This document shows positions 7,521 to 63,742 of a DNA stretch of 64,000 bases, piece by piece. The notes under the pieces were generated by a model. The model saw only the letters and a program-made list of their open reading frames with translations. It was not told the DNA's origin and did no database searches. How positions within the stretch are numbered: position 1 is the first letter of the stretch; every line of letters starts with the position of its first letter. The stretch comes from Amphibalanus amphitrite (lineage: Eukaryota > Arthropoda > Thecostraca > Balanomorpha > Balanidae). Location of the stretch: NCBI RefSeq assembly GCF_019059575.1, contig NW_024882739.1, positions 124,001-188,000 on the forward strand, written 5' to 3'. Both the position numbers and the translations under genes were made by a program.

Positions 7521-7810
7521 AGCACATTTTAAGCACTCACCTGAACCTTCTCGCTACGAGCTTTCGATTGCCGCCTTCCGCTTATTTCTACGGTCCTTGG
7601 TTTCGAGTAAGCAGAGGGATGATATTTACCTCCCCCCCCCCCCAGCGCCGCGCGTTCGGCTGGAGACCCCGGCGCCGCGCGGGCCGGATATCAAACGCCT
7701 GGCGCAGCGCTGAAGCGCGCACAGCGTTGGGACGGTGAAACAGGACCCTAGGCAGGTGTCACGAGCTGTCTGGTTTCGGTGCAGCGTTGATGTCATGTCA
7801 TGTCATGCGG

Positions 7811-7850
7811 TGGTGATATTTAGCGGAACATCACTTTGAAGCTCAGTTTG
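7811..7850 (+). promoter_or_regulatory. Core promoter of cysteine-rich peptide gene 1
   Basis: GGTGGTGATATTTAG (from 7812) carries a TATA-like ATATTTA. It is followed 29 bases later by the arthropod initiator TCAGT at 7843-7847. The same pair at nearly the same spacing recurs at genes 2 and 4 of the cluster. The transcription start at A7845 is inferred. Confidence 0.65.
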
Positions 7851-7925
7851 CAAGCTGAAGCGTCTGCCAACCGAGTGCGGCAAATCTATTCAAGTGGGCA
7901 AAACACGCTTTGGGGGACATTGAAG

Positions 7926-8006
7926 ATGAAGTTATCGCTATTGATGGTAAGGTTAACACCTTAATTGTCGTTTGGAAAGAGGTGCGTGATAAAAAGAGGG
8001 CATGGT

Positions 8007-8083
<77 letters not shown>

Positions 8084-8968
8084 AGAGAATCGTGTTTTGC
8101 CAAGGCTTTTTATTTACTGGTTCAGTCACATGTACGCCATGCATTTATGTTTGCATGCATGTTCCATAGTGACTACATAACTATGCTGTATGCATAATAT
8201 AAGCCATAGGCTCATACACATATTACAGTATAAGCCTTTGTACATATATTTTTAAGCATAAGGACTAGAGGTGGCAAAATGTGGACCCGAGGACCCGGTC
8301 CAAAGAACCAGTCTAGACCCATATGGGTCCAGACCGGTTCCTTGAAATTTTCTGACGGGTCCAACCGGGTCCTACCATAAACTATACATATTGCACACTA
8401 CACATTATTGCAAAATATGAAGTGAATGAAGTGAATGTTTCTTTGCACACAGTAGCTCATGAGTATTCCCAGTGGGAAATAGGCTGTTATACATGAAGCA
8501 ACTAATGATGTCTACAAGTAGTTTGTATTAGTTGACTTTTGGGGACCGGGTCCAACTGGTTCCGATTCCAACTAAGACCGGGTCCGACTGGTTCCAGAAA
8601 TGTCCAGCCGGGTCTGGTTCGAGTCTGGTTCCCAAAATTTTTATCTTTTGCCACCTCTAATAAGGACTTCTTATACATATAACCCGCTTGTGTTACCAGC
8701 TGTCGATTGTCATAGAGAATCGCTACTTTTTTCCATTGGTTAGTGAAAGCTCTCAATCAACTTCAGGCTGTTGAGCTCATCATCCGACACGTTCTCTGAC
8801 GCTCCCGTTTTTCATTTCTAGCTGCTGCTGGCCGGTCTTCTCTTGTTGACGGTGGCAGTGCCTGTGGCTGTCGGGCACCCACAAGTGGTCCCTTCGCCAA
8901 CACCCTGGTGCAGGTGTCACCATTGCTGTCCCAATTGTGACTGGTGTCGGTATTGCTGCTATGCATAG
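7926..8968 (+). CDS. Secreted cysteine-rich peptide 1 (two exons)
   Basis: Exon 1 is 7926-7946, 21 bases encoding MKLSLLM, and ends at a GTAAGG donor. Exon 2 is 8822-8968 and starts after TTTCATTTCTAG. The joined product is 55 residues. Residues 1 to about 25 form a strong signal peptide (LLLAGLLLLTVAVPVAVG). The rest is a short Pro-rich linker and then a cysteine core, WCRCHHCCPNCDWCRYCCYA, with spacing C-x-C-x2-CC-x2-C-x2-C-x2-CC. No named family is recognised. Eight cysteines in 17 residues suggest either several disulphides or metal binding; which of these is unknown. The promoter, exon layout and signal peptide match the neighbours at 10456 and 15031, which supports a real tandem gene family. 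Intron 1 contains a long (GA)n tract and a hAT-like insertion. A poly(A) signal follows at 9212. Confidence 0.82.
8010..8079 (+). repeat. (AG)n microsatellite in intron 1 of peptide gene 1
   Basis: About 35 uninterrupted AG units lie roughly 65 bases after the exon 1 donor. The dead fourth copy has a similar tract in the same place (16904-16976), so it probably predates that duplication. Confidence 0.97.
8266..8659. mobile_element. hAT-type miniature element
   Basis: The terminal inverted repeats are TAGAGGTGGCAAAA and its complement. The flanking 8-base duplication ATAAGGAC is exact (8258-8265 and 8660-8667). At 394 bases with no coding region it is non-autonomous. The subterminal parts carry repeated GGACCCGG/CCGGGTCC-like motifs. 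An 8-base duplication with TAG-starting ends is typical of hAT. It lies in intron 1 of peptide gene 1. Confidence 0.9.
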
Positions 8969-9211
8969 TAATGGCTCGTAAAGATCAGTCAACAGAATGG
9001 CCTCGCTCTTCTCAGTTCAAGGGGATGTCTCATCAGGCTCCGCTCAGCACTTCACAGGATCGCTGGAAGGAACAGTGAATATCGTTTGTGAAACTATCCT
9101 TACAGACTGGATACCAATATAAAATTGATTCGCTGAAAGTTATCTGTGTTTAGTGATAAATGCAAATATTTGGGAGGTTTGGGGAATTTCCCCTGGCTTT
9201 TTCCTTGCTTC

Positions 9212-9217
9212 AATAAA
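9212..9217 (+). terminator. Poly(A) signal of peptide gene 1
   Basis: AATAAA lies about 240 bases after the stop codon. The surrounding sequence (AATAAACGAA..TATTTGTT) resembles the 3' end of peptide gene 3, as expected of duplicated genes. Confidence 0.7.
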
Positions 9218-9235
9218 CGAAATGTATTTGTTGCC

Positions 9236-10360
9236 GTGTTCGGTTGGGCCATTCTGGTACATTCAGGTCATCTTCTAGCAATGAGATGAGAGGATGAGTG
9301 GAAGAAAATGTAGCGCACTTTGTTCGAGGCGGAAATGTCCTGATCATTTGACCCGAGGCTAACTAAGGTCGGCCTGATTTCGATCACGTGGTCTTCATGG
9401 TTCCGCGCAACATGAGCCCTAAAAAAGCACATGGCAACACTACAGACAGGGCCTAATGATCACTGCTATTCTACAATACGATTACGCACAATGTGCAACA
9501 TACAGCGCAATAACTTGGAGCTCAAACTCTAGTCGGCGCGATCTGCGCCAACCCCGAAACATATAAAGAAATTCATACCTTGCGGAATTCTCTCATTTTC
9601 TCCTTTTTCTCATTTTTCTCATTTTCTCATTCTCTCATTTTTGGCTCACATACGTTTTGGCGTGAAAAGCAAAAAAGGCTTGATAAACGACTGCGTTAGC
9701 GCCAATAATTTGTGCGCCATTTATTATGGCGCGAAGTTAGTTATTTAATGCCGAAGCTATTTATTGCCGAAGCTATTTTGGTGTGCATGGCGCACATGCA
9801 CTGGTCAAACATTTTCTAAATGTTTCAGCATATCATGCCAAGAAATATCTGGAAATGAGCCCTAGTATATTTGAGGCAAAACAACAGAATACCGCTGATG
9901 TACAAATTGAACGATGTTAGTTTGGTGCCAATTTTGATCAGCATTTAACCGATGCTCAAGTTGGAGCCGAAACAAGGGCAAGAACCGAAGTCATTAGCGG
10001 TCAACTTCACAGTCCTGCTATGGAATATGGTGTCTTGTGAATTTTGTTATTTGAGACTTCGAATTGTGAAAAAACGCCCGCCCGCCGCCAAACGCAAACA
10101 CCGCAAAACGCACCATAGCAAAAAAAAAATCTACCAAGCCGTAGCATAATAATAATTCAGCATCACAGAGTCAACAAACAAACAAAGATATGAAAATGCC
10201 AACTTTTATAGCAGAATACGAGTACAGCAGCAGCGTAGAATTTAACTCATGTTTGTCATAGAACAGTATCTTTCAAACTGACCGTTGGTGATTCACCAGG
10301 GTCCAGTCTCTAGCGACTCACAAAATGACAGGCCTATATGTCATTTTTGAGTCGTGTCGG
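9236..10360 (+). other. Spacer between peptide genes 1 and 2
   Basis: No gene seen. A pyrimidine-rich TCATTTT tandem stretch lies at about 9590-9645. A short open frame at 9952-10149 has no recognisable content. Confidence 0.5.
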
Positions 10361-10400
10361 TGACATTTAGCTAAAGCGTACCTCAGAATTCAGTCCATAG
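10361..10400 (+). promoter_or_regulatory. Core promoter of cysteine-rich peptide gene 2
   Basis: TGACATTTAG at 10361-10370 corresponds to the TATA-like box of gene 1. The initiator TCAGT (10390-10394) is again 29 bases downstream (A10363 to A10392). The inferred leader is about 60 bases, ending at the ATG at 10456. Confidence 0.6.
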
Positions 10401-10455
10401 ACATTTGTGAGCCGAGGCACACCGAAAAAGACAAGAGGACACAGCTGTTTGAAGC

Positions 10456-11346
10456 ATGAATCGCTTTGCTCCGATGGTAAGTTTTAGTGCTGTGTCGAAA
10501 GATCTGCTAGAGCCGGAGAGAAGGAGAGATTGATATTTTAAATTTATGTTTCACAAATGCTCCTTTTTATTATTGCTCGTATCCATTAACTTGTATCCCA
10601 TCAATCCCTTCTCCATAAAATGTTCGTGTCTAAACGTCATGCATCTATTTCCTGTCAATAAATGCTCAACAACTTCGAGTGACGACTATGTTGCAATTAT
10701 CTCTTTTCAGTGAAAAGCATGCATAAATAGTTACGCTTGCACAGTCAGTTGAAAATGTGTGCTTATTGTAGCCAAACTAGGCGTGCTATTTCTTTTCTCA
10801 TATCTGTCCGTAACGACACGGACTAACTAACATGTCTGTCATTTCCAGATGGTCTTTACCACAGTCGTTGTTCTCCTGGCTGTCGAGATGGTTCTGGTTG
10901 TCAGCCATGCACAACACGCGATGACCAACTATCCTCCCAAAAAATCACCCGAGTGTCCGTGCTTGCTCTCGCGCTGCTGTCCTTCTATGCGTTGTGATGC
11001 ACCGTGCCGGCACTGCTGCCTTTTGGAGACGACATCAAATATGTCAAATACGGCTGCCGAGTTGAATTCGAATTCAAAAGCGGCCAGAGTTGACAATACT
11101 GCCCCGAATACAACAGGGAGTCAGACTACCCAAAATCTGGGATCAACTTGGGGTGTCGAGTGGGAATCAACGCCATCGGCGACTGGAGTCGACAGTTCTG
11201 CTGCAAGTTTGGATGGGAAATGGACGCTGTCACGCGGGGGCTCGGAGTCGAAGTCAAAGTCGGCTGTTGACGACAGTCCTGCCCCGAGCCTGAATGGGAG
11301 TCAGATTAGTCTAAACCTGACCAATGCCGGAGTGACTAAAGGCTAG
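10456..11346 (+). CDS. Secreted cysteine-rich peptide 2 with long Ser/Asn/Thr tail (two exons)
   Basis: Exon 1 is 10456-10476 (MNRFAPM) with a GTAAGT donor. Exon 2 is 10849-11346 after GTCATTTCCAG. The product is 172 residues. The signal peptide is about residues 1-28 (VVVLLAVEMVLVVSHA). The core CPCLLSRCCPSMRCDAPCRHCC has spacing C-x-C-x4-CC-x4-C-x3-C-x2-CC, the same eight cysteines as genes 1 and 3 with longer loops. Unlike them it has about 100 extra residues rich in Ser, Asn, Thr and Gly. These include several sequons (NMS, NTT, NGS, NLT), so the tail is probably glycosylated and disordered. Part of the tail looks internally repeated (VDNTAPNTTGSQ, VDDSPAPSLNGSQ). Function unknown. Confidence 0.82.
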
Positions 11347-11391
11347 CTGTAATCATGTTTGTTGTAATATAGTACGTCCTCTTACTGATTC

Positions 11392-11397
11392 AATAAA
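11392..11397 (+). terminator. Poly(A) signal of peptide gene 2
   Basis: AATAAA lies 46 bases after the stop codon at 11344-11346. It is the first such signal downstream. Confidence 0.7.
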
Positions 11398-11629
11398 GCA
11401 CATGACGAGATTAATGACATGATCCTAGTTTTATGGGGCCCTTATTGATCGTGAACAGCACAAGACAAAAAATGGAGGGTGCTGTCCTGCAGTATCTATT
11501 TTGGGACTGTTCACTGCGTAGTGTGTTTACTTTACCTAATCGTACCTTTATGCATGCTTAGAAAGTATCTAGGAAATGCGCAGGGTATTGTTAAGGTTAA
11601 ACCAGTAAAAGGCCTTTTGGGGCGACCAA

Positions 11630-12600
11630 CGGAGCGAGCAAGAGGGTGAGTCTTGCACGTGCGAACGAAATTGCGAGGGGGTACCTCCAACTAACTTGTG
11701 CACTGCAATCTGCATCCTACTAACCAGTTCTTAGCGATGTGCCAAATTTGAGCGCAATCGGCCTAGCCGTTCTCGAGATCTGAAAGCGGCACCTTGCACG
11801 TGCGCACGTGCAAAATAGGCCCCAACTGACTTGTTCACGGCAGCCTACTAACCGATCGCTAACTATGTCCCAAATTTCAGCGCAATCGGTTCAGCCGTTC
11901 TCGAGATCTGGAATCGACCCCATGCACGTGTGCACGTGCAGCAGCGCCCCAACTGTGGCACATGGATATGCATTGCCTACTAGAGATGTCAATCGGATAC
12001 CGACTTTTTGGTATACCGATTCCAAACCGATACCAACTTTGTATTTGGTATTTCAATCCTAATGTACTTGGTATTTTTTGGTAATGAGCCCTCGCTAATA
12101 TGTATATAGGAGGCTGAGAAATTGGTAAAAGTCGGTATAGCTTTCTCATGTTATTAAGTTGGGACGGTATCGGTATTTCCTTACGGGTAATGCTGGGATT
12201 TGGTTTGGTATCGGTATTCAGATTTTCTGTAATTGACATCATTAGTGCCTACCTACATGCCAACTTTCAGCGCAATCGTTCCAGTAGTTACCGAGATATT
12301 GCAATTGTTACAAAACTGACTTCTCTTCGTTTTGCACGAGGCACGTGCATAAGGGGTCACCCACATGCATTGGGAATAGTCCAGTACTTGGCAGAAGGAA
12401 TGAAGCTACTCTACAAAAATTACCCCATGTAAATCGGTAAAGTTGTTGCTGAGATGTAAGCCTCGCAAAAACGTGACCACGGCCGGCCGGCCGGCCAGCC
12501 GCTCATACTCAGAAATTTCCGTAAATCTACGAAGGACTTCGCTCGCGTCGCTCGCTCCTTAATGAAAGACTCCGCTCGCTTCGCTCGCTCAGTAACCAGT
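11630..12600. repeat. Interspersed repeat with GCACGTGC boxes, part shared inverted with 17.4-18.0 kb
   Basis: Recurring phrases such as TTGCACGTGCG, CAATCGG.C.AGCCGTTCTCGAGATCTG and GCACGTGCA occur three or four times at 11650-12370. The segment from the GGCCGG run through the CGCTCGCTC run (12480-12600) occurs in reverse complement at about 17610-17710. No coding region is seen. A hAT-like element (11981-12244) is nested inside. Confidence 0.6.
11981..12244. mobile_element. hAT-like miniature element
   Basis: The left end is TAGAGATGTCAATCGG. The right end, read inward, is TAATGATGTCAAT. The flanks TTGCCTAC (11973-11980) and GTGCCTAC (12245-12252) match in seven of eight bases. The inside is filled with GGTATCGG/CCGATACC-type repeats. 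No coding capacity. Confidence 0.7.
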
Positions 12601-12853
12601 ATCTCTGTCGTGAACTGTGATGCAGGGGCGTAACTTTGTATACTTCAAAGGGAGCAGTTGCACCCCCAAAGTTAAATTATGCACCCTCAATGTTTATGTT
12701 GGACCCCCAACGTTTCATCCCTTTATTGGCATTAATAACTATAAAATACACAAGATTCTTTGTTTCAAATACATATAAAGAAGTCTGGCAAACCTAATAA
12801 AGAACGGATTTATAGCGCAAACCAACCACCACTGTTGCACGTTTTTATGTTAA

Positions 12854-13922
12854 AGGTAGTGTGCCACCTTTAAAAGATTTCCCATTTTATTTTTCCTAGG
12901 ATAAGAAGCTTCTGTGTTTACCTAATATCGCAAAAAAATCAAAAATGGGCCTGGAATTGTGCCTTTTTCGCCTAAAAGTTTATCGGTTTTTCGATATGTA
13001 TAACAACTGTAGTGGGCTGACCTGTAAACAGGCGTCGGCAACAATCGCGAATGCGGCGCACATGTGACAATAAGCAAAGGTCATTATAGAGTTACGACGT
13101 ACGGGAATGAGTTATCAGCTGTCTAATCGTAGACAACACAATGTCGAGCCTTAAACTGTAAGCCTGTATTGGTATTGTTTCTTTTATTTGGCTGTCGAAC
13201 ATTATTTATGGTTTGAAATATGATTTTATGTAAAATAATTGATATGAAAAAGCCGTCTCTTAAGTTATGACCCCATTTCACCACACGCAAGTGGCAGAAA
13301 TGACAATGATCAGCTGACGCATTTTCTTGGCCGAAGTCAGAGCGCGCGGCCCGACGCACCACCACCGCACCACAAAGTATGAGCAGAAGCCGCGCCCAAA
13401 GCCAGGGCCCCGGTAACGTGAGGTAGCCGAGTCGGGGCAGCGTGCGCTGACCCAAGCCGTGGCCGCAGCTTTGGGCGCGGTCTACCGCATCCCCGCGGGC
13501 AGCCCCGGGCTATCACATGACACCGGGAGGACGCGCGGCCCCGGCTTGGGTCAGCGCACGCTGCCCCGACTCGGCTACCTCACGTTACCGGGGCCCTGGC
13601 TTTGGGCGCGGTCTACCGCACCACCTAACAGGCGTGTTCGAAACCGCAGGAGATGATGATGAACGGGTTTATCGAAACTTGATTGGATGAGCATATCGGT
13701 AATAGCGATTTCAGTGTGTGCATTTATTGTTCATAGTGGTGTGAAATGTGGTTGGGGTACGACCGACAACCCGTCGGGGCGAATTTCGCACTGGGGTACT
13801 CAAAATTTGAAGAATTTAAGACGTTTCCATGAGTTTTGAAGGTATGGATAAGTTCTAAAAATCCGGTTCTCCTTATCTGGGCCATTAACTCCATACGGTC
13901 CAGGAAAGCTGGCACACTACCT
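12854..13922. mobile_element. TTAA element with internal palindrome, copy 1
   Basis: The target duplication is TTAA (12850-12853, 13923-13926). Terminal inverted repeats begin AGGTAGTGTGCCA. The 1069 bases carry no transposase. A perfect 69-base inverted repeat, GC-rich, lies at 13391-13459 and 13542-13610. The copy at 34885-35956 differs by scattered substitutions and small indels only. TTAA duplication with these ends fits a Kolobok- or piggyBac-like non-autonomous element. Confidence 0.88.
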
Positions 13923-14224
13923 TTAAATAAAACATATTGAACAATATTCCTCTCACGACTTTTTGCACGAATTTTCTTCGAACCATACACCTCCAGTGAT
14001 CGAATCACGTTGCGAAATGATTCAGGAACTTCAGTTCCGTTCTTTCTTAGGTTTGCCAGACTATAACAAGAATATTCAATGTAAAATGGTCAGAACTAAA
14101 ACAAGTGCACCAGTGCATGATATCATGTCAGTAGTTACAATTTTTAGTATAAGTAACTCAATGAGTCACTTGAGTTTACTGGAGTAAGCTTTGCTTGATT
14201 GTTATTATTTTCATAGCAAAATAG

Positions 14225-14890
14225 TGCCGGTTAGGGCTGTACCGGTTGTACCGAGAAGTAAGCAGTTGTTCACGTACTAGAAATTTGATATTCGTGTCAT
14301 GAAGCACACATATAGATAGAACGGGGTCTTTGGTTATGTAATACACTCGTAAAACTGTGATACTTCATGTGAATGTCAGCAGTTTCTAGGGCTGCATATT
14401 TTGGTATGATTCCTAGATGTGTCCAGTCTACGGGTTTATCACGAAGTGCCAAGTGGAGTCGACAAAGAAACACGGCTGCTGAATTTAAGCCGGCGATGGC
14501 CAATCTAAAATCGTTTAGAACTACTAACGGCCATTATAAGCCAGTTTGGAACAATCATAGGTCTATTTGAACCACTCAATCCTGGTTTCTACTTATTTGT
14601 GAATTGTAATTGTGTGCATTTCTTTTCCCTGTCGCAGTAACCTAACATTTCTGAGTAAGCCAAAAAAAAACGACGCGCTCATATTTCGAAGACTATCAGC
14701 ATCAACCATGACCTTTAACTAACAAAGCGATTTGCCTACGTGGAAGTAAGAAACCCCCCTTTTTCGTCAGCTCTACAAATGTTACACAAAATGTCACATA
14801 TTACGTAACGCCACCCCAGAGCTGGTGACAGTTGCCGTCAGCTACTGGAGTGACAGTTATGACGCAAACTGGGACATTTTAGAGACGGGA
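14225..14890. repeat. Segmental duplication, copy 2 (partner 6221-6890)
   Basis: This block matches 6221-6890 in order and orientation and leads directly into peptide gene 3. It ends at GGGACATTTTAGAGAC, which resembles the TATA-like block of the other peptide genes but lies 73 bases from the initiator. The preceding 13927-14224 shows no feature. Confidence 0.75.
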
Positions 14891-14943
14891 CGTAGGCGTG
14901 TAAAGCAGGCGTTTGGTCGTGAACGGTTGGAGCCGACTCCAGA

Positions 14944-14960
14944 TTTCAGTCCGTAGGCGT
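14944..14960 (+). promoter_or_regulatory. Initiator of cysteine-rich peptide gene 3
   Basis: TTTCAGTCCGTAG matches the initiators of genes 2 and 4 (TTCAGTCCATAG, CTCAGTCTGTAG). The TATA-like block is not at -29 here; the nearest match (ACATTTTA, from 14874) is 73 bases upstream. Expression of this copy may therefore differ. Confidence 0.5.
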
Positions 14961-15030
14961 TTTCGATCGGAGGTAAGGTGTCGAAAAAACACCAGAAAGC
15001 GTTTTGAGGTGCTCGTGCTTAGCGTTCAAG

Positions 15031-15409
15031 ATGAGTCGTTTTGCATTGATGGTAAGTTTTAGCGCTTAGTTCATATGCGCCTTTATAGATGCATACCGTC
15101 TGCCAATCGATCAATCGTTCTCCTTTCATTCATAAACGTCATATTTTTGTTTTTCATTTGTAAGTAAATGTTCCCAATCGCTTTCATTTTCATCAGTTTG
15201 CCAATTTTGTTGCAACCATTGACCGACCCGTTTTTTTTTTCTATCCACAGCTGCTGCTGATCGGCCTCGTGCTCTTGACGGTGGCAGTTCCTCTGGTTGC
15301 CAGCCATCCACAACCAGGTCCTGGCTGGCCACCAGTGCTGCGGTGCGAGTGTCACCGATGCTGCTCGGGCTGTGCTTTCCGGTGTCTTCGCTGCTGTGTA
15401 AAGGAGTGA
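15031..15409 (+). CDS. Secreted cysteine-rich peptide 3 (two exons)
   Basis: Exon 1 is 15031-15051 (MSRFALM) before GTAAGT. Exon 2 is 15251-15409 after CTATCCACAG. The product is 59 residues. The signal peptide (LLLIGLVLLTVAVPLVAS) is nearly the same as that of gene 1, and HPQ follows in both. The mature part is Pro/Gly-rich and ends in CECHRCCSGCAFRCLRCCVK, spacing C-x-C-x2-CC-x2-C-x3-C-x2-CC. The intron is only 199 bases. Because signal and cysteine pattern are conserved while the loop residues vary, I infer a paralogue under constraint on the fold. Function unknown. Confidence 0.83.
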
Positions 15410-15877
15410 AAGAGTGGGGCTATGCAACACTTCAGCTGAAGCTATCGCAGCGAGAACAAGGTTTAAGGCTGGAACACAGCTTTCAAGCGGGCAAATCGCT
15501 TCACGCTTCTCCCATCAGAATGCATGACATATTTTGTGCTCCCAACTCGCAGCTCCAAGTACTGCGTATTTGGAGCGAAAAATAGGTGTGCCATGTATTC
15601 TAAGGGGTGAATTGATAATGCAACTTGCACACGTAAGAGCTGTGTTTCAGCCTTCAGTCTCTGTGTCGGTACCTGAACAAGTTTTTTTTTCGGCAAACGT
15701 TTAGAAGATAGGTATGTGATACGGCTTCTCTTTACCTTTTGACTGAACTTTCCGTCGTATCATCCGTGAGCACCATTTGAAATGTGTTATTGATTCCCTG
15801 AAATGTATTGGTAATTGGGTGTTTCATCCGTAGGTTTCAGTGGCTTGGGAATTTTTCGGCATTTTTTAACTGCGCTT

Positions 15878-15883
15878 AATAAA
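15878..15883 (+). terminator. Poly(A) signal of peptide gene 3
   Basis: AATAAACGAT sits about 470 bases after the stop. The context resembles the end of gene 1. Confidence 0.6.
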
Positions 15884-16019
15884 CGATTTGTTATTGTTCT
15901 TGTTTTTGTCGCCATTGCCGGCATGTTTAGGTTTTCTAGCCCATTTAGCCAATTTCATGGCCGTGAGATGACCAAATAAGGGACAAATTCTACACAGCTG
16001 AGTCGATCACCGAATGGTG

Positions 16020-16225
16020 AGCCACAGTAGCTGGGTTCGTCCCGTTTTTGAAACGGGTGTGCCCCGTTAGGATTGGTCACCCAGCTGTTCAAACGGTCCA
16101 CCCGCTGAGGTACCTACTGCTCGTACTGGAGCAGTAGGTATGTACCTCTGAGTTGGTCACGACCACTCAGCTGGTGTGACCAACAGCTGAGTGGTCACAC
16201 CACTCAGCTGTTGCATGGGTGGTGT
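16020..16225. repeat. Cluster of nested palindromes
   Basis: Several hairpins lie side by side. One joins GGTACCTACTGCTC to GAGCAGTAGGTATGTACC. AGCTGAGTGGTCACACCACTCAGCT is a near-perfect palindrome around 16182-16209. Units of GGTCAC.CAGCTG recur. Nothing coding lies between 15900 and 16640. Confidence 0.6.
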
Positions 16226-16721
16226 GATCGTTAGACCGAAATATACCAATGCGACCAATACTGAGGAGAAGTTGAACTCAAAGATAAAATTATGGATGCT
16301 CTGCAATACTTCTTGAAATGATGAGGAGCGCAATTTTATGTCTTCTACATCATATTCTGAATATTTTACTATTGTTCATTGCTTATTCAGGTAGTTTGCT
16401 TATAAAACATGAAACGAAAAATAAAAATGAGTAGTCAATACACAGTCGAGTAAATGAAACGATAATTTTTAGAGGCCCAGAGTAGGTAAGTACCTACGTT
16501 TAATAAGTGAATCATTGCATCATGAAAACAAAAAACGATATCTGTTTTTTTTTCAATACTAACGAAGTCGAAGCTTGAAGTAGTGGCTTGTGTGTGTATG
16601 TTTTTTTTGGAGGGGGGGGGGGGCTTCAGGGTGCACTGCGACCCAGTGGCGTGTCAACTTCTGTCTGTCTGTTCGTGACTCACGTTGTGACGAGTGGTAG
16701 GGGGTGTCATCATGTAGGTCA

Positions 16722-16765
16722 CGGTGGTGATATTTAGTCGCAGCTCACTCTGAGCTCAGTCTGTA
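16722..16765 (+). promoter_or_regulatory. Core promoter retained by dead peptide copy 4
   Basis: GGTGGTGATATTTAG matches gene 1 exactly over 15 bases. The initiator TCAGT (16756-16760) lies 28 bases from the TATA-like box. The leader ATTCAAGTGGG..GGACAAG also resembles that of gene 1. Confidence 0.6.
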
Positions 16766-16900
16766 GAGGTATACCGACGAAGGCATACCAAATATTCAAG
16801 TGGGAAGGACAAGTTTCGGCGGTGCTAGTCATTCAAGATGAATCCCTGGCTATTGATGGTAAGTTTAAGATTGGGAAGGGGTGCAGGAACCGGAAAGTGA

Positions 16901-16903
<3 letters not shown>

Positions 16904-16976
<73 letters not shown>
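16904..16976 (+). repeat. (AG)n microsatellite in intron 1 of copy 4
   Basis: About 36 AG units lie some 50 bases after the exon 1 donor, in the same relative place as the tract in gene 1. Confidence 0.97.
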
Positions 16977-16979
<3 letters not shown>

Positions 16980-17384
16980 TAAGAGAATGAACGCTGAATT
17001 ATTTGTTTCGCAAATCCTTCCTTCTACATATTATCGCTCGAGCTGTGTATTGTTTACCCAATCTCTTATTCATGACTGATTTTCGTGGCTCAACCCCATG
17101 CATCCTATTTGTCAATATATGCTCAACAGCATTGAGTGGCTGCATTTGGTTCATCATGCCTGTGTATGACAGAACATTTCCATTTATCATGGTGTAATAA
17201 TTGTTCTTGTTTGTGTATAGCATTAATAGATAGTAACATGTAAATTTCGAGCGGTTAGTTAAATATGCGTATTTTTGTGAATTCCTGATAATACTTTCTC
17301 ATATTTGTCCGTAATGACACCAGCCAACTACACCAGCTACTACACCAGTCAGCTACTAGTTACTACCCCCGTAACCCTTACCGT

Positions 17385-18000
17385 TCCCAAGCAATAGCCT
17401 GTTTTTGCCCATTATAATGCTAGCCCTATGGTACACATGAGCACGCGCCACGGGCGCACCCCCGGCCGCATCGTGCCCAAAATTTAATATGACCTGTTGA
17501 ATCACGTGGCCCACGAGTAGTAAAAATTTCACCCTCCTGCGTCAATCGACGGCGCCGCAATAAGCGTTTTTGGGCGTAACCCCGACGGCAGCGGCGGCGG
17601 CGGCGGCGGACTTATAAGGATTTATTACGAGCGAGCGAGCGCAGCGAGCGAATCGAAGTCTTTTCAATACAACGGAAAAATCTCAGTATGAGCGGCCCGG
17701 CCCGGCCTGTAACGCTTTTGAGAGGCTTATATCTCAGCGACCGCTGGACCGATTGGCCTGCAGTCTTTTTTGCTGGGTAGCCCCATCCCTTCTACCCCGT
17801 AATTGACTACTTTTGATACATCTCAGTGACCGTCGTGGCACGTGCCACGTGAAAAGTCAAGGGTGTTCAGGCTGTTTTGCAAAAGTCGTGATTTTGAGAG
17901 GCTCATATCTCAGCAGCCGCTTGGGCGATTGTCTCGTTTCGTCTTACGACCCGATGATGTCGTAAGACGAAAGCTTGCTCTATATTTTCGGCCTCATTTT
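17385..18000. repeat. Interspersed repeat inside the copy 4 intron
   Basis: It has a GCGGCGGCGG run and AGCGAGCGAGCG. It carries two copies of a phrase like TTTTGAGAGGCT.ATATCTCAGC and a GGCACGTGCCAC box. The part at 17610-17710 is inverted relative to 12480-12600. No gene seen. Confidence 0.5.
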
Positions 18001-18432
18001 GTTATGTATGTAAAAATACATCTCACTGCCATGTTATTGGTCAATTTCATCACCATATTTTATCATAAGTTTCAATCGAATACTCTTTGGTACATACCAC
18101 GGGATAAATGCTTAGATATGCGCGCCTGTATCCCCAGCTGCCGGTGGCCAGCCTCGTGCTGCTGTTGGTCGCCATATCTCTGGAGAACAACATTCCACTA
18201 CTGATACTACCCACAATGGGCTACTAGTGCAGGCGCCAGTGTTGCTGAAACCACTCTGCCGAATGGTATGCATACCTATTGCTTTGGTGCAAAGCAGCCA
18301 TGGGCGTAGGAACGTCACGAAAAGTGTGTGTGTGTGTGGGGGGGGGGGGTAGCGAAACTTCAATGTCACTTTGTGGGAGCCCCAATACCCCTATGAAGAA
18401 ATTCTTTACAGTTTCGTGTTCATCTCAGCTAG

Positions 18433-30300: not shown

Positions 30301-33300
30301 CCTCGGGGCAATGCCGGAATACGCGATTCCAGACAGTCGCTCTTCCATAGCGGCCTATTACGCAGTCCGGTTCACCGTGTCCGTGTCACATTTGACCTGA
30401 CCTGACCTGTGACGTGATTGTTGTTTTCCAGGAGCGGGCGCTGCCTCTAAAGGTGTATCACAGGCCGGTCAGAGGCGCGACAGTCGACAGAAGTCATCCT
30501 CCGAGTCGTCAACTCCGTCTTCTCCCGAAATCAGGTGGGAACGAGTACCTACCGCTTGATTAACTTTTTCGTTGCTGAATTGCCCTTTCAGTAGTCGATA
30601 GATAAATGGTTATTTACTCGTGGTCGTTTATAGATGCTTCATAGCTAGTTGGAAGGAGCTGGTTAAATGAGAACCTGAAGAATTAAACTAAATTGTATTG
30701 CATTACATTCTTCGCCATCAAATCATTGAAGGAACGTTTGGGTCATTAATTCATTATCATTACCAAGGCCATCTATAGAAGGTACAGTCACTCCCCCGCC
30801 GACCAATCAGAGACAGATCCTGAGTGACGTCATCCCTGATGCTCGCAAGGGGTACTCCATTCCTTTGCAACGTAAAAATGACTGACTTCATTTGAATATT
30901 ATTGATGGCACTCTGCACATACCGCTCAGCCGTTGATGTCAATGGAAAGCCCAACTAATTTTCCAGCGACAAGAAAGGGCAGCAATATGCTAAGAAATGG
31001 CCGGTTTTGAAGATATAGACGATTTAAAAACCCTCTGCAACAGCAGGAAAGCAACGTAAAAACGCATCGAGCTTATATTTTTACTATGGATAAATCATTT
31101 TTCAGTAAGTTTTTAGATATGGTATATATTTAAGTTACAACTTTATTACAATATTTTCATTACTTGAAACTTTATTTCAAAATAATATTTTCAAAAATGG
31201 CAGCTGTTGGCCAGTAGCTTGGGAGCGATTGTGGCGCGCCGCGCCATTAATTGTCCTGTGGCCCCCTTATGATGTCATCAAAAGTGGAGTGACATGGGCC
31301 TGATCATTACTATCTTCGGGTTATGGTTGGCGGTCGGTCGGTTCCCATACGATGGCACCCGGAACTGTCCTTTGCCCCCCCCCCCCCTCGGGGAGTGCGC
31401 ATAGAACGGTCCTGCTGGTAACCCCGTGCGTGTGTCAATCGCCGTCAAACGGTCCATAGCCGAGATTACTGCCGATAAATAACCATTGGACCGGGGCATT
31501 CCTCAGGGAAGGGTCGACCCCCCCCCCCCCGCTGGGTGGCGCGGTCCCGCGGACGCTGGGTCAAAGGGGGGGGGGGGGACGCCAGGCTGGAGAGGTCCTT
31601 CCTCCCTACCTCTGGGGTAGGGGTGGGTAGGGGTGAGGTGGGAGGGGGGGGGGGGAGGGAGATTAGCCTCTGACCGGGCGGAAATAACGGTCTCGCTGCA
31701 TTTACATGGGGAGACGCTGGCAATGGTAATGGGCATTCCAACCTGTACCGGGGGCAGTGTGGAAGCATGGGTCGGGGTTTTTCGCTCCTCCCGTCCCATG
31801 CCACTAAACCTCGGGGAGGGGGGGGACGCACGTGTTTGGGATTACCGTAGCCTCTGACTGGGGAGCCGCTTTCAGTAATTAGCCTGCGTGCCCGTGGTTT
31901 CGACTAGCCTCTGCCTGGGTCATGGCGTGGGGGACGACCCACGTGATTGATGGGTTTACGAGCACCGGCACAGTCCGTTTTGAACGCCTTACTCTTACTT
32001 AGTCCTGACTATGAGAGCATACTTATTGAATTGTCGATACTCCAATAATGTTTTTCGGCGGAGAGTGTTGTGTGCGGTCAGCTCATCGCCTACCTGCTTG
32101 CGCACGACATTCTGACCGAGACGCAGCACGGGTTCCGGCCTGGCCGATCCACGGAGTCGGCGATGCTGGACACGGCCAGTTTTCTCATGGAAGGCCTGGA
32201 TGGCGGCCTCATAGGGTGTCTGACGACCGCTGACACCAGTAAGGCTTTTGACAGTGTCCAGCATCCCCGGCTCCTGGAAAAGCTGGGCTGGTATGGAATC
32301 GACGCGCACTGGTTCCGTGACTGGTTGTCCGACAGATGTCAGGTGGTTCGGGGTGGTGAGGAGGTGAGACCGATCACTCACGGCGTGATTCAGGGGTCGC
32401 TGCTCGGGCCGATCCTGTTTTTGATTTTCACGAATGATCTAGCATCGTACCTGGACACAAAAACTGTTATGTACGCCGATGACGTTCAGTTTTTGCATAG
32501 AGCATCACCAAAGCACATGCCAAAACTCAAATCAGATATAGAGAGCACTTTAGAGATCGCAAGTCACTGGTTTGTTCAAAACTGTTTGAAAATCAATCCC
32601 ACCAAAACAGATCTTGTTGTTGTAAAGTCACAAAGGCGCCGACTCGACACAGAATTTACTGTTAAATTTGGTAGTGCGACGATTCGTCCATCTGTAGCGA
32701 CCAAGATTCTCGGTGTGGTAGTCGACTCCGGACTGACTTTTGAATCGCATGTGACCGCGGTTATCGGCCGATGCTATGCCACACTAGGGGGACTGTCCAG
32801 ATCCGCTCGCGGCCTGCCGCGAAACGTGAAGCAGATGATCGTGGAGATGTTAATTTTCCCCCACATCCGATACTGTATGTCTGTGTGGTCGGGATGTGGC
32901 GTCGTGCAGCGACACCGTATTCAGAAGGTGATAAACCACTGTGCACAGGTCGTCATGGGGGTCCGACGCTCGGCTCATGTGACGCCTCTGTTGGCAGAGC
33001 TATGCTGGCCCCATATAGACAGGCTGGTGGCGGAGAATGACTGCAGTACTGTGCATTACTTGTTGAATAATGTTCATGCACCGAAGTGCCTCTCTGAGCG
33101 GTTTGTACAACGCAGCGACGTGTCGAGCAGACAGACTCGAGCCACTGAGAATATGCAGCTCGAACTGCCGAGGGTCCGCACCGAACATGCTCGCAAGTTC
33201 TTTTATTACCGCGCCTGTGACGTTTGGAACTCGCTGCCAGCAGACATTCGGTCGTCACGCACGTCGGCCACTTGTCGCAGGCGTTGTCGACGATTATTCA

Positions 33301-36300
33301 ATGGTGACTAGTCACTGTGCGCGTAGCTTTCGGTCATTTGTACCGATATGCATTTTACTTTTTAAGTCCCATGCTTTTCATGGTTTTTACTTTTAGCTTT
33401 AGTGTTTATTTTAGCTTTATATATGTGCCTACCTATTTACTGTATGACACTTGGACTGAAAAGCCGTGAGTGCATGGAGCTTCCAAACGAAATAAATGAT
33501 GATGATGATGATTCGATTTTCCCTATCTATCTCGTCTGGTCTGTCCCGTCATATCTCACTTCGTCCATCTGTGTTCCTTCTGACCTGTCTCTGTTTCGGA
33601 CCTACGACTGACTGTACACTTGCCTGTCTAAACCGTATCACGCATTATCCGTTTTTCGTCTATCTGTGCCCCGTTCGTCTGATCAGTCTTCCCCGTTCCC
33701 GTTTTAGTCGTCTAGCCCATCTGTGCCTCCTTGATTTTCCGGCTGACCCATTTCCCGTGTTCTATCATAATTCATCTTCGTTGTCTGTTCCGTTTGCCCC
33801 GTCATTTGTAGCTCAGTCTGACCCCGTGTTTATAGTTAACTTGTCTGGCCCTCGTTTCTGACGTCCCCCCCCCCCCCCACAGCTCCGGCCGTGCGATGTA
33901 CCCCCCATCACCACACCACCACCAGTATCACCAGTATCAGTATCAGCACCAATATCAGCACCAGCCGCACCAGCACCACGGGCAGCATCCTCAGCAGCAC
34001 CACCAGCAGGGTCGGAGACACCAGCAGCGGGCCAGGAACGAACAGCATCACCAACAGCAACAGCAACAACAGCAGCAGCTATCGCCTCAGCATATGGAGA
34101 CGGTGCGGTTTCTAAACCAAAGTGAGTGGAAATACGGGATATGACGAGGTGCGGTAAAAATGTAATATTTTAGTGGTGGGTTCATTCGTCATACATCTCT
34201 GATTTTGCGCCTCGTTTCACGTTACGGACGATACGGTAAATGCGACATCCTTTTATTATTTAGGGTTATTTCTTGGTATCATTGACCGTTTTCGGCGATA
34301 GAAGATCGTTTCATTCCTCCGGTTGAAATAATCATAACGCTCTTCGTGTGTTATGTTCAGACGTGTTTGTTTTGACGCCCTGTCCCAAAATATCTCGTGC
34401 AGTCGGTATATCATCCACGTGAAAATGCCTCTCTGGCTCTTCCCGTCCCCGGCTCTGTCCCGTGAATGTGAGGCCGTTTTCTGAATTCTGACGGTGCCGT
34501 CCCGGTTTTTTTTTCAGCATGGAGAACAGTGCAGGAGGAATGTGAAAGCTCCGGGTCAGGAGGTGGTGGTAAGTTAAAACCCGATTTACACACTTAGAAG
34601 GCTGGCGCTGCATGATCCTGCCTTCATCAGACATCACACCCCTAAACCCCAACCAATGCACCGCTCAGATGTATAATACGGTGAATGTTCATCTTCGTTT
34701 GTCGTTAGTTGTCAGTTATCACCCACGCAAAGTGAATGCTAATTGTTAAATGGCGAAAGTTTTCTCTTCAATTACGAGCTGTGCGGGTTCAGTAAGGAAT
34801 ATTAACTGGGTTTTCTGGAAATAACCATCACATCCCTTAGCTGGTTCTGAATACTTTCCTTTTGCCATTCCGTAGCTATCTTAAAGGTAGTGTGCCACCT
34901 TCCAATGATTTCCCATTTTATTTTTCCTAGGATAAGAAGCTTCTGTTTTTACCTAATATAGCAAAAAAAAATCAAAAATGGGCCTGGAATAGTGCCTTTT
35001 TCGCCTAAAAGTTTATCGGTTTTTCGATATGTATAACAACTGTAGTGGGCTGACCTGCAAACAGGCGTCGGCAACAATCGCGAATGCGGCGCACATGTGA
35101 CAATAAGCAAAGGTCATTATAGAGTTACGATGTAGGGGAATGAGTTATCAGCTGTCTAATCGTAGACAACACAATGTCGAACCTTAAACTGTAAGCCTGT
35201 ATTGGTATTGTTTCTTTTATTTGGCTGTCGAACATTATTTATGGTTTGAAATATGATTTTATGTAAAATAATTGATATGAAAAAGCCGTCTCTTAAGTTA
35301 TGACCCCATTTCACCACACGCAAGTGGCAGAAATGACAATGATCAGCTGACGCATTTTTCTTGGCCGAAGTCAGAGCGCGCGGCCCGACGCACCACCACC
35401 GCACCACAAAGTATGAGCAGAAGCCGCGCCCAAAGCCAGGGCCCCGGTAACGTGAGGTAGCCGAGTCGGGGCAGCGTGCGCTGACCCAAGCCGGGGCCGC
35501 GGCTTTGGGCGCGGTCTACCGCATCCCCGCGGGCAGCCCCGGGCTATCACATGACACCGGGAGGACGCGCGGCCCCGGCTTGGGTCAGCGCACGCTGCCC
35601 CGACTCGGCTACCTCACGTTACCGGGGCCCTGGCTTTGGGCGCGGTCTACCGCACCACCTAACAGGCGTGTTCGAAACCGCAGGAGATGATGATGAACGG
35701 GTTTATCGAAACTTGATTGGATGAGCCTATCGGTAATAGCGATTTCAGTGTGTGCATTTATTGTTCATAGTGGTGTGAAATGTGGTTGGGGTACAACCGA
35801 CAACCCGTCGGGGCGAATTTCGCACTGGGGTACTCAAAATTTGAAGAATTTAAGACGTTTCCATGAGTTTTGAAGGTATAGATAAGTTCTAAAAATCCGG
35901 TTCTCCTTATCTGGGCCATTAACTCCATACGGTCCAGGAAAGCTGGCACACTACCTTTAAGCTATTTCGATCATGGTTCATCGCTTATTCAATGTTATCT
36001 TTGCCCTTTTTACGTTATCGTGGTAACTAACTCTCAGAACTGATTGCTAGCGGTTCTTATGATTCATCTACAAATTTCTAACTTTTTTGTCCCATACGTA
36101 TTTAATTGTCCACCATGAATTGTTCACTTATATTTGCATTGTCCCATCTCGCCATTGCTCGATATCACGTAAGTTTACTTGTCTTTGTTTCAGATGTCTC
36201 CTCACTGTACTATCAGGAGCCGGCGAAACACCCGGCGTTACAAGGTAATGTTTCTACTGATACAGCCGGTCATATTGGCATCAGCTTAGCTTCTAGAGAC

Positions 36301-40517: not shown

Positions 40518-43500
40518 TCAGCTTTGCCGCATCCTCCACACACAGAAGGTGACCGCCAGCGCCGTGACGGTACAGTGGAGCAGCTTCCGACTGGAGTCGT
40601 CCCGTCGGACCAGTACCACTGGGGAGCCGGAGCTCAGAGAGTGCAGAGGCAGCCTGCGGGACGGGGAGGGAGTTTTGTTAGTATTTAGACAGAAAGACTC
40701 AGGAAGTGGAAAGATAGTTCATAGCGGACAGGAAAAATTGGCAGCATTGATGCTAAACTTTGCACTACACCCTGCAATTTTCGAATATTAAAAATTTTGA
40801 CTGTGGTCCTCCCAACACATGAGATCGAAATTTAGCGTGGTTAAAATACTGTTGTGAAATGCGGAGCTCCCTCGCATCATCCTCACGCGACCAATACCGA
40901 TGTTTTGATGGTTAACCGGGATGTCGAAATACAGGACAGTTGGACCCCAGAACTCAAGTGTTTTATCACGATTAGATTAGATTAGATTTATGAATTGATT
41001 CTGATAATGGATGTTAGACGTTAGACACTATGGACGGTAGATTACAACAAGACTTCGATTTATAAACGTTTTGAATCCAATCACAACATCTGGTGACCGT
41101 GACAGGACTCAGGTCAGGACTAGCGAAATGGAAGCTTACATTGAAGTCGCAGCTAGACATGGATTGACAGGCGAAGCAGCGTTGACTTTCGCATGCAAAC
41201 AACTAGAAAGAGAGGAGAGAAGACTGGAAAGAGAGAGGGAAAAGGAAAAGGAAGAGAGAGAAAAGGAAAGAGAGAGAGAAAAGGAAGAGAGAGAAGAAAA
41301 AGCCAAGGAAAGAGATAGGGAAGAACGCGAAAAGGAACGAAAACATGAACTGGAGCTAGCAAGATTACGCGCCCCGTCGGAAACCTCGGCGGACACGGAG
41401 AGGCCGAGACGGGGCACTGTTACGGGTCCCAAAATGCCCACGTTCGACGAAGAAAAAGACAAAATGGATGCCTACATCAAGAGATTCGAGCGCCACGCCC
41501 GGCTCAATGATTGGCCGGAGCACCAATGGGCAGGGCACCTTAGTGCCCTCCTCACAGGAAAGGCTCTAGAAACATATTCCCGGCTTTCAGAAGAACAAGC
41601 GGAGCGGTATGAGGATTTAAAGGCAGCCTTGCTCGAGCGGTATGGGCTAACATCAGAGGGTTACCGCCTGAAACTGAGAAATATCTTACCAGAGACAGAC
41701 GAGAGCCCAAGTCAATTTTTGTCTCGTCTTGAGTCATACTTGGCCAGGTGGATCGAGCTGTCGGGAACTGATGCTTCGTACGAAGGTCTCTTCGATCTCA
41801 TCGTGACTGAACAGTTCCTGGAAAGCTGCCCGGACTCCTTGGAAGTCTATCTCAAGGAGAAAGGATGCAAGGTGTCCGCTGACTTAGTCGAACATGCGGC
41901 GCAATACTTAGTCGCGCACGGTAAAACCTTGGAGTCTATGTTAAGACGATCAGTCGGCAAAAATATAGCATCAGCCACCGCCCTTGCGACCAGTTCTGGA
42001 TCTCTTGGTCAGACATGCCTGTTCTGCGAGTACCAACATGCCACGAGCAAATGTCGGAAAGCTAAGCATATGACCATAACTGACCGGCGAGATCGTCTGA
42101 TTCGAGCCGGCGCATGTTTTTGGTGCTTAGAACCCCGGCACCGCGCAGCGGAATGCCCCGCCAACAGACCCAGGTGCGAGCGGTGCTCGGGCCCCCACCA
42201 CTCGTTGTTGTGCGAACGATCCGCATCTCGGACGGTCAACACAGCACAACTCGAGACATCAGCGACAGAGCCGTCCTCGAACCCGACGGTAATAGCCGCA
42301 AGCGCTAGCGGAGCGAGCGCTGGAGGCAATGGGGTCATTCTAATGCAGACGGCGCGGGTGTATGCAATGGGCGAAGCGGACCGAAAAGTAGTAAGGGTAA
42401 TGCTGGACACCGGTAGTAACCAGTCGTTTGTGACATCCGCCGTGGCCGACCAGCTTCACTGCCAGCAGCTGGCCCTCGACGACATGAACGTGCAGTCATT
42501 CGGAGGTGGGCAGACGAAGCAAAAGATGAGGAAGGTGCAGATATCACTAAAAGGCCTCTGTGACGGAACCCCACCTCTGGCGATCACAGCCTATGTCGTG
42601 CCGACGATCTGCAGCTCACCACCGAGAGCGGAGCCGGCGATCAGACGTCACGCTCACTTGAAAGGACTGCAGCTGGCTGAACCGGTGACACTGGAAGGCG
42701 AAGATCACACCATCTCCGTACTGATTGGACAGGACTACATGCGGGAAGTGATCGACGGCCGCATGAAGATCGGAACTGCCGGGCCCATCGCGCTGGGCTC
42801 GCGATTCGGCTGGATCATCTCCGGTCCCTCCGGCTCTGGGAAAGCAACTCAGGCAGCGACTTCCAACTTCATCAGAGCGGAGAAGGCCGAAGACCTCTTA
42901 CAAGACCTCTGGAGCCTGGAGAAGGTAGGAATTAGTACCGAGGAAGCCGATGGTGGAAAGGACCGCATTCGCTGCGACGATGAAGTTAAACGCTCTTTTG
43001 AAGAGACGCTGGAGCGCCTACCAAACGGAAGGTATCAAGTCTGTTGGCCTTGGAAGGAAGGGATGAGAGCCTCCGTCCCGACGAATGAAATACTCGCGAG
43101 TACGAGGCTAAATGCCTGTGAAAGGTCACTTAAGAAGAAAGGACGGCTGAACGAGTATGATAACGCAATCCAAAACTACTTGGATGACGATCACGCGGAG
43201 AAGGCGCCAACCGTACCCGACGGGCCAGTGCATATTTTGGCTCATCAAGCTGTCTACAAAAAGAGCAAAGTGCGGGTAGTTTTCGATGCTGCAGCTGGAC
43301 AACCAAGTGCCCTGAACGATCATATCAATGCTGGACCCAACCTGATAGCCGATCTCACCGGCCTTCTCATTCGCTTCCGGTTCAGACGAGTGGGTCTCGT
43401 AGCTGACCTCGAGAAGGCATTCCTGCAAGTGGCACTGCATCCAGCTGAGCGGGACGTCACGCGCTTCCTATGGAGGGAAAGAGCGACCGATCCTGTCCCG

Positions 43501-63400: not shown

Positions 63401-63742
63401 TGAGACTACGCTCGCAATACCGAAGTAGAAGCCTCATCCCCTACTGTCTGTCAGTCATGGCACCATCCCTATTGTCTGTCAGTCATGGGACTACGCTCAC
63501 AATACCGAAGTAGGAGCCTCATCCCCTACCGTCTGTCAGTCATGGGACTGTCCCCTACGGTCTCTCAGTCATGGGGCTACGCTCACAATACCGAAGTAGG
63601 AGCCTCATCGCCTACTGTCTGTCAGTCATGGCACTATCCCTACTGTCTGTCAGGCATGGGACTACGCTCACAATACCGAAGTAGGAGTCTCATCCCCTAC
63701 TGTCTGGTAGTCATGGGACTACGCTCACAATACCGAAGTACG
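57428..63742 (+). repeat. 82-86 base satellite, about 75 units, with higher-order structure
   Basis: Each unit contains GGACTACGCTCACAATACCG, AAGTAGGAGCCTCATCCCCT and a variable spacer built of TCAGTCATGGGACT/GCACT repeats. Spacer variants give units of slightly different length. A run of variants from about 59264 to 60120 recurs 2180 bases later (61444-62300), showing block duplication. Flanking units at both ends are more diverged. Long plus-strand frames here are translations of the repeat. Confidence 0.97.

Follow-up and report, generated by a model that had tools for sequence, protein, structure and literature searches.

Hepcidins are small secreted peptides that carry eight cysteines and end in C-x2-CC, and in toxin families of the conotoxin and spider-toxin type a conserved signal is combined with fixed cysteines, hypervariable loops and tandem duplication. 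Among barnacles, Amphibalanus amphitrite has AaCrus1, a secreted crustin of over 230 residues with a WAP domain and a tetradisulfide core built on eight cysteines (PMC8877177), and Pollicipes pollicipes has PpRcys1, a cysteine-rich antimicrobial peptide of tested activity with 12 cysteines at residues 22-96 (PMC12195476). Here we describe a 64-kb stretch of A. amphitrite DNA (the window, C1242:124001-188000, where C1242 is contig NW_024882739.1 of an assembly of 807,550,619 bases in 2,644 contigs) that holds a tandem cluster of predicted two-exon genes for secreted-type proteins with an eight-cysteine core. In keeping with a source in A. amphitrite or a close relative, the two primers reported for the mitochondrial acyl carrier protein of Balanus (Amphibalanus) amphitrite (PMC2713238) have exact matches in the assembly, the forward primer at two sites and the reverse primer on C223, 4.4 kb downstream of the forward one; splicing there from a GTAAGT donor to a CAG acceptor leaves 65 + 110 = 175 bases from one outer end to the other, equal to the amplicon as published. 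We consider the chances about even that these are real spliced genes whose products would be secreted, lineage-restricted, four-disulfide peptides acting in host defence.

The window contains three intact genes (g1, g2 and g3) and one decayed copy (g4), all on the forward strand. The coding part of exon 1 is exactly 21 bases long in each (at 7926, 10456, 15031 and 16838) and is followed directly by a GTAAG donor (GTAAGG or GTAAGT). The introns, all in phase 0, measure 875 (g1), 372 (g2), 199 (g3) and 1279 (g4) bases and end in the acceptors TTTCTAG, TTTCCAG, ATCCACAG and ATCCCCAG, respectively. Hydrophobic second exons follow at 8822-8968 (g1), 10849-11346 (g2), 15251-15409 (g3) and, up to the stop, 18138-18227 (g4), and the predicted proteins of g1, g2 and g3 have 55, 172 and 59 residues. 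The initial annotation had reported four exon-1 peptides, each with a phase-0 intron and then a hydrophobic exon, and all four were found where it had placed them, as was an eight-cysteine core in three of the four loci, the strict motif being present in g1-g3 only. Its count of four loci holds for three intact genes, the fourth being a pseudogene, and its term mini-proteins fits g1 and g3 but not g2, with its long tail.

Three instances of the strict cysteine motif are present in the six frames of the window, all in the exons of g1-g3, and four of the exon-1 pattern; in 200 simulated order-1 Markov sequences as long as the window, the means were 0.0 and 0.04, respectively. Across the 807 Mb of the assembly, a 29-base exon-1 pattern that contains no cysteine codon was matched five times with up to 3 mismatches (g3 and the paralogues h3, hc, C32 and C769, described below), each time upstream of a family cysteine exon, and the reversed pattern, used as a control, had no match. 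Exon 1 of g1, g2, g4, hd, C210a, C210b and C198a lies at least 4 bases off this pattern and so falls outside the search. With the looser pattern ATG-N15-ATG-GTRAG, seven regions (214 kb) yielded 10 matches, all at family loci, two of which are decayed; a looser exon-1 pattern in C210 picked up an unrelated frame, MSYIVAF, besides both family exons.

The cysteines themselves were compared in an alignment of nine distinct proteins, which left out h3 (the same as g3), C198a (the same as C210a) and C198b (near-identical to C210b). All eight are invariant in the nine, with the spacing C-x(0-1)-C-x2-4-CC-x2-4-C-x2-3-C-x2-CC, and both TGC and TGT are used in seven of the eight cysteine columns. For the seven closest proteins (21 pairs, pooled; the distant C210a and C210b were left out), the ratio of non-synonymous to synonymous differences (pN/pS) was 0 at the cysteines, where pS was 0.62; it was 0.55 in the signal, 0.70 in the linker and 0.97 in the loops. 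We make no claim of positive selection, since with pS at 0.49-0.66 the synonymous differences approach saturation. Between g3 and h3, one of 180 coding bases differs, synonymously, whereas the intron has 8 changes in 193 bases and the 5' flank 35 in 293; the 112 differences counted over 284 bases of 3' flank are probably due to misalignment. C210a and C198a differ by one synonymous change in 216 bases, and C210b and C198b by four residues, none at a cysteine. The counts of differences are small, yet the pattern appears to be that of constrained protein-coding genes. These values bear out the earlier observation that loops vary while cysteines stay, with the signal more constrained than the loops, and a random placement of cysteines, named beforehand as the outcome that would refute the family, did not occur among these paralogues of one genome.

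Core-promoter-like elements were sought in 12 aligned upstream regions, including that of the decayed g4 and leaving out that of C198b. In nine of the 12, among them all four window loci, a TCAGT initiator lies 66-85 bases 5' of the ATG, and a TATTTA or CATTTA box precedes it by 25-26 bases in g1, g2, g4 and hc. C210a and C198a carry a TATAAA box and no TCAGT, and C210b has neither element. Given this position of the initiator, the first exon of the window genes would be about 85-105 bases long if transcription starts there; the 21 bases given by the initial annotation as the whole first exon are thus exact for its coding part, but probably form only the end of a longer exon. At the other extremity, AATAAA is found within 900 bases of the stop in 10 of 12 cases, the exceptions being hc and C769. 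A scan for bacterial-type promoters, limited to 7700-8000, found none, nor did a tRNA scan or an Rfam scan at gathering threshold give any match. Signal peptides were assessed by eye and with a hydropathy window, the -3/-1 sites being picked by eye: all 11 tabulated proteins have a hydrophobic, signal-like N-terminus ending at a small-residue -3/-1 site, after which come HPQ, HAQ, HPL, SPQ, AAQ or APR. From the predicted site on, the mature peptide of the short members has 30-46 residues, with a mostly proline-rich linker.

The loci differ in detail. In g1, the TATTTA box (7817-7822) and the initiator (7843-7847) precede exon 1 (coding part 7926-7946, MKLSLLM, donor GTAAGG); the intron (7947-8821, 875 nt, phase 0) contains a GA microsatellite at 8007-8088, and exon 2 (8822-8968) encodes the remainder of the signal-like stretch, a proline-rich linker and the core CRCHHCCPNCDWCRYCC before the stop, with a polyadenylation-type AATAAA at 9212-9217. 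For g2, the core-promoter-like elements span 10364-10394 (CATTTA at 10364, TCAGT at 10390), the coding part of exon 1 (10456-10476) encodes MNRFAPM before a GTAAGT donor, and in exon 2 (10849-11346) the core CPCLLSRCCPSMRCDAPCRHCC is followed by a long hydrophilic tail with N-x-S/T sequons; AATAAA lies at 11392-11397. The g3 initiator (14946-14950) has no TATA-like box about 25 bases upstream; the coding part of exon 1 (15031-15051) encodes MSRFALM, again with GTAAGT, exon 2 (15251-15409) encodes the core CECHRCCSGCAFRCLRCC of a 59-residue protein that is the same as its copy on contig C592, and AATAAA is at 15878-15883. Between g2 and g3 there is an inverted repeat with arms of 77 bases (13390-13466 and 13535-13611), 99% complementary and 68 bases apart. 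The fourth locus, g4 (elements 16731-16760, with TATTTA at 16731 and TCAGT at 16756; coding part of exon 1 at 16838-16858, MNPWLLM; exon 2 at 18138-18245), is a pseudogene: after the hydrophobic stretch a TAG stop (18225-18227) precedes the cysteines, and a CRRQCC remnant lies downstream of it. Since g1 and g4 share 5' sequence (7808-7839 and 16722-16753, 81% identity) and a GA repeat near the intron start (8012-8079 in g1 and 16906-16975 in g4), we suggest that they are a duplicate pair.

Paralogues were collected by searching the genome with g1 and C210a (tblastn) and inspecting the loci; as only the best candidates were scored, the family size is a lower bound. Nine further intact copies on five other contigs bring the total to at least 12 intact copies on six contigs, plus two decayed ones. 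On C592 these are h3 (exons at 271980/272194), the tailed hc (275520/275980) and hd (278052/278552), together with a decayed copy whose exon 1 at 273641 is paired, by inference, with an exon 2 near 274888. The others are C769 (300426/300710), C32 (745598/742781, minus strand), C210a and C210b (34475/34604 and 36265/36550 on C210), and C198a and C198b, the counterparts on C198 of the two C210 genes. The gene structure is retained in these paralogues on five contigs, which upholds the initial view of a tandem, secreted-type, eight-cysteine family with a tiny first coding exon. In C769, the donor after codon 7 is the non-consensus GTACGA, with GTAAGT 6 bases further on, and its first coding exon may therefore be 27 bases long.

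Contigs C198 and C210 are collinear with 94-99% identity and evidently represent two haplotypes. The window from -0.4 to 39.7 kb is likewise collinear with C592 264.9-294 kb (window 1-39683 versus C592:264935-294000), in blocks mostly 85-93% identical, but gene order within the cluster differs between C1242 and C592. With an identity of only about 90%, the C592 segment is either a haplotype that has diverged strongly or a duplicated segment that takes in the peptide cluster, and the number of distinct genes is about seven if it is allelic and about 10 if not. A repeat of about 0.9 kb at C592 274.0-274.9 kb, beside the decayed member, is present in several copies at C1242:118922-122608. For C769 and C32, an origin as haplotypes was considered and rejected, their flanks not being collinear. 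In the gene tree only the pairs hc/g2 (95) and C210a/C210b (98) are well supported, hc/g2 forming a separate branch; these two (exon 2 at 10849-11346 in g2 and at C592:275980-276273 in hc) share the hydrophilic tail, with a C-terminal GSQISLNLT block and N-x-S/T sequons that no other member found possesses. Weak tblastn matches without the cysteine motif were dropped: C813 and C1578 (g1 query), C1334, C1849, C154 and C1042 (C210a query), and six from a further tblastn search scanned for the motif. The two lowest g1 matches, C102 (E 1.72) and C331 (E 3.23), were left out of the inspection, and two minus-strand stretches of low-complexity cysteine sequence (L011 with the loose pattern, L022 with the strict one) were not counted as members.

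The question arises as to whether such peptides belong to a described family. Seven members (hd, hc and the C198 copies being left out) were scanned against Pfam at E up to 10. Six matched nothing, and C32 matched a domain of unknown function (DUF) at E 0.1, below that domain's cut-off; in particular, there was no match to WAP, to the defensin profiles (CS-alpha-beta, big defensin and beta-defensin), to hepcidin or to metallothionein. A profile search of the PDB at E up to 10 returned 10 matches at chance level, the best of them HIV Tat at E 0.38, and the mature-region profile matched nothing there. Seven of the 10 are Tat (E 0.38-2.8), through a likeness in C-x-C-x2-CC-x2-C that we rejected as due to chance. 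Nothing at E <= 1 emerged when a database of 5.8 billion predicted proteins was searched with two profiles (1,280 and 1,997 candidates). As a control, the open reading frame (ORF) of a reverse transcriptase of the long interspersed nuclear element (LINE) type, taken from the window, had 602 relatives at E <= 1e-10 in the same database. One among the 120 matches listed is 98% identical over 63% of the query, from which we conclude that the database probably holds DNA from A. amphitrite or a very close species. In that database, proteins seem to have been called without introns, so that the blank result is weak evidence for absence of the family elsewhere; it is consistent with the idea that ordinary ORF calling misses such genes, and may only reflect the protein calling of the database. 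A literature search (titles and abstract starts among the matches listed, with few subscription journals) found no description of the peptide family, nor any match to the framework string C-C-CC-C-C-CC. The earlier statement that its author knew no family with such a pattern thus stands as far as Pfam, credible PDB relatives and the protein database (E <= 1) are concerned.

Compared with the systems introduced above, the family shares with hepcidins the small size, the predicted secretion signal, the number of cysteines and the C-x2-CC end, but its spacing appears to differ from the one commonly given for hepcidins. For one fish hepcidin, PMC3325200 reports an RX(K/R)R cleavage motif, and none is present in the tabulated family linkers. 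AaCrus1, as described (PMC8877177), is likewise secreted, cysteine-rich, from the same species and equipped with eight cysteines, but it is far longer and has the WAP domain for which the seven members scanned gave no match. PpRcys1 is also a short, secreted, cysteine-rich barnacle peptide; its 12 cysteines and their spacing, as reported (PMC12195476), set it apart from the eight of the family core. Toxin families of the conotoxin and spider-toxin type resemble the family in conserved signal, fixed cysteines, variable loops and tandem copies, but in the family signal and core are separated by no more than a short linker.

In the reading that we favour, host defence, transcription would be driven from an initiator-type element, to which some copies add a TATA-like box. 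The last 21 bases of the first exon would encode the start of the signal-like stretch, and after the phase-0 intron the second exon would complete it, with a small-residue cleavage-type site ahead of the HPQ-like residues. In short members this would release a mature peptide of 30-46 residues in which a mostly proline-rich linker leads to the tight eight-cysteine core; g2 and hc have a longer hydrophilic tail as well. The eight cysteines would form four disulfides and thereby a protease-resistant scaffold, on which the freely varying loops, many with Arg, His or Trp/Tyr/Phe, may serve as the working (contact) surface. The peptides, restricted to this lineage, would then be extracellular antimicrobial effectors and attach to the membranes or surfaces of microbes. 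General features of host-defence peptides are present, namely the signal-like N-terminus, the eight cysteines and, in short members, the size of the mature peptide. In its tandem copies, its decayed members and the C1242/C592 order difference, the family resembles defence-peptide loci. The core alone carries a net positive charge (+1 or +2) in all nine distinct proteins, and the whole mature peptide is positive in six (g1, g3, hd, C769, C32 and C210a), neutral in two (g2 and C210b) and negative in one (hc).

Several points weigh against host defence. Where positive, the net charge of the mature peptide is modest (+1 to +5), and that of the tailed members and of the short C210b is neutral or acidic. 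The pattern is one that toxins, ligands or structural peptides could show too. At so high a pS, a loop pN/pS close to 1 indicates weak constraint and not positive selection. Structure prediction for mature g3, aligned with g1 and g2, did not yield a usable fold (mean predicted local distance difference test score, pLDDT, 54; predicted template modelling score, pTM, 0.17). Finally, gene structure and cysteine pattern are predictions from genome sequence, and the lineage restriction is a suggestion drawn from a single genome.

Among functional alternatives we would place cross-linking in cement or cuticle ahead of a signalling or toxin-like ligand, and the latter ahead of metal binding. Peptides secreted into cement, cuticle or shell matrix would use their cysteines for disulfide cross-links, an adhesive or structural role that we hold to be unlikely. 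The host is an acorn barnacle, and CP20 is cysteine-rich. According to PMC8371367, the bulk cement of A. amphitrite contains a cysteine-rich protein cluster, CrCP, with none seen in the goose barnacle Pollicipes. CrCP and CP20 match the family in cysteine richness and species. However, the two A. amphitrite CP20 entries given there have 129 and 118 residues versus 55-71 in the short members, a comparison by length and description, and cement clustering as described pairs cysteine with lysine (PMC8371367), whereas mature g1 has no lysine. An extracellular ligand, whether signalling, reproductive or toxin-like, would have as its target a receptor or channel in conspecifics, symbionts, predators or prey, and seems to us less likely still. 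A constrained signal with fixed cysteines and free loops is generally the pattern of many ligand and venom families, but we know of no venom apparatus recognised in barnacles, the loops are not conserved as would be usual for a hormone with a conserved receptor, and neither Pfam nor the PDB offers a credible relative.

Should the cysteines instead remain as thiols and bind Cu(I) or Zn through C-x-C, C-C and C-x2-C, the peptides could serve in extracellular metal handling or detoxification, which we regard as improbable. C-x-C-x2-CC-x2-C is indeed like the clusters through which cysteines bind metals, and the cysteine region of HIV Tat, to which the chance-level PDB matches above point, binds Zn. 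However, a signal peptide would lead into the oxidising secretory pathway, which favours disulfides, and there was no metallothionein match in Pfam. Metallothioneins usually lack aromatic residues, and every tabulated mature peptide has two to seven of them; the hydrophobic N-terminus of all 11 tabulated proteins is another difference from metallothioneins. A last alternative is that the loci are no genes at all, but open frames arisen by chance, or dead remnants, within DNA rich in repeats. It can appeal to the repeats around the loci, to one decayed copy per cluster (g4, and 273641/274888 on C592) and to the fact that the evidence is genomic only. We nevertheless find it very hard to maintain in view of the motif count relative to the simulated sequences, the complete conservation of cysteines despite frequent synonymous differences, the identity of the g3 protein with its C592 copy although the 5' flanks have diverged, and the five of five exon-1 matches that precede a cysteine exon.

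Other elements of the window lie outside the cluster. An intact ORF of 1371 residues at 41041-45156 (+) is of the BEL/Pao retrotransposon type (Peptidase_A17, DUF5641 and RVT_1), and its first 16 residues are repeated at 45412, which suggests direct terminal repeats. The LINE-type reverse-transcriptase ORF used as a control (420 residues) is at 32049-33311 (+). A satellite array with an 82-base unit occupies 57439-63720, with 71.3 copies at 57715-63720 (89% matches) and 3.3 copies at 57439-57715; it probably explains the recurring QSWDYAHNTEV frames in the ORF list.

Sessile crustaceans live amid dense biofilm, and few barnacle defence peptides appear in the literature searched. In this setting, the host-defence family would add an unmatched disulfide framework and candidate antimicrobial or antifouling leads, and it would serve as a worked example of short secreted genes that cannot be seen whole when ORFs are called from single exons. 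More tentatively, it may represent a barnacle-restricted innate-defence repertoire, in which an orphan four-disulfide framework was born and diversified in this lineage with fixed cysteines and almost unconstrained loops. The assembly holds two diverged versions of the locus that differ in cluster content and order, so the set of peptides might then vary from one individual to another. Were the clusters on C1242 and C592 allelic, there would be haplotype-level variation of copy number and order in a peptide family; and if the peptides are parts of cement or cuticle instead, they would have a bearing on underwater adhesion.

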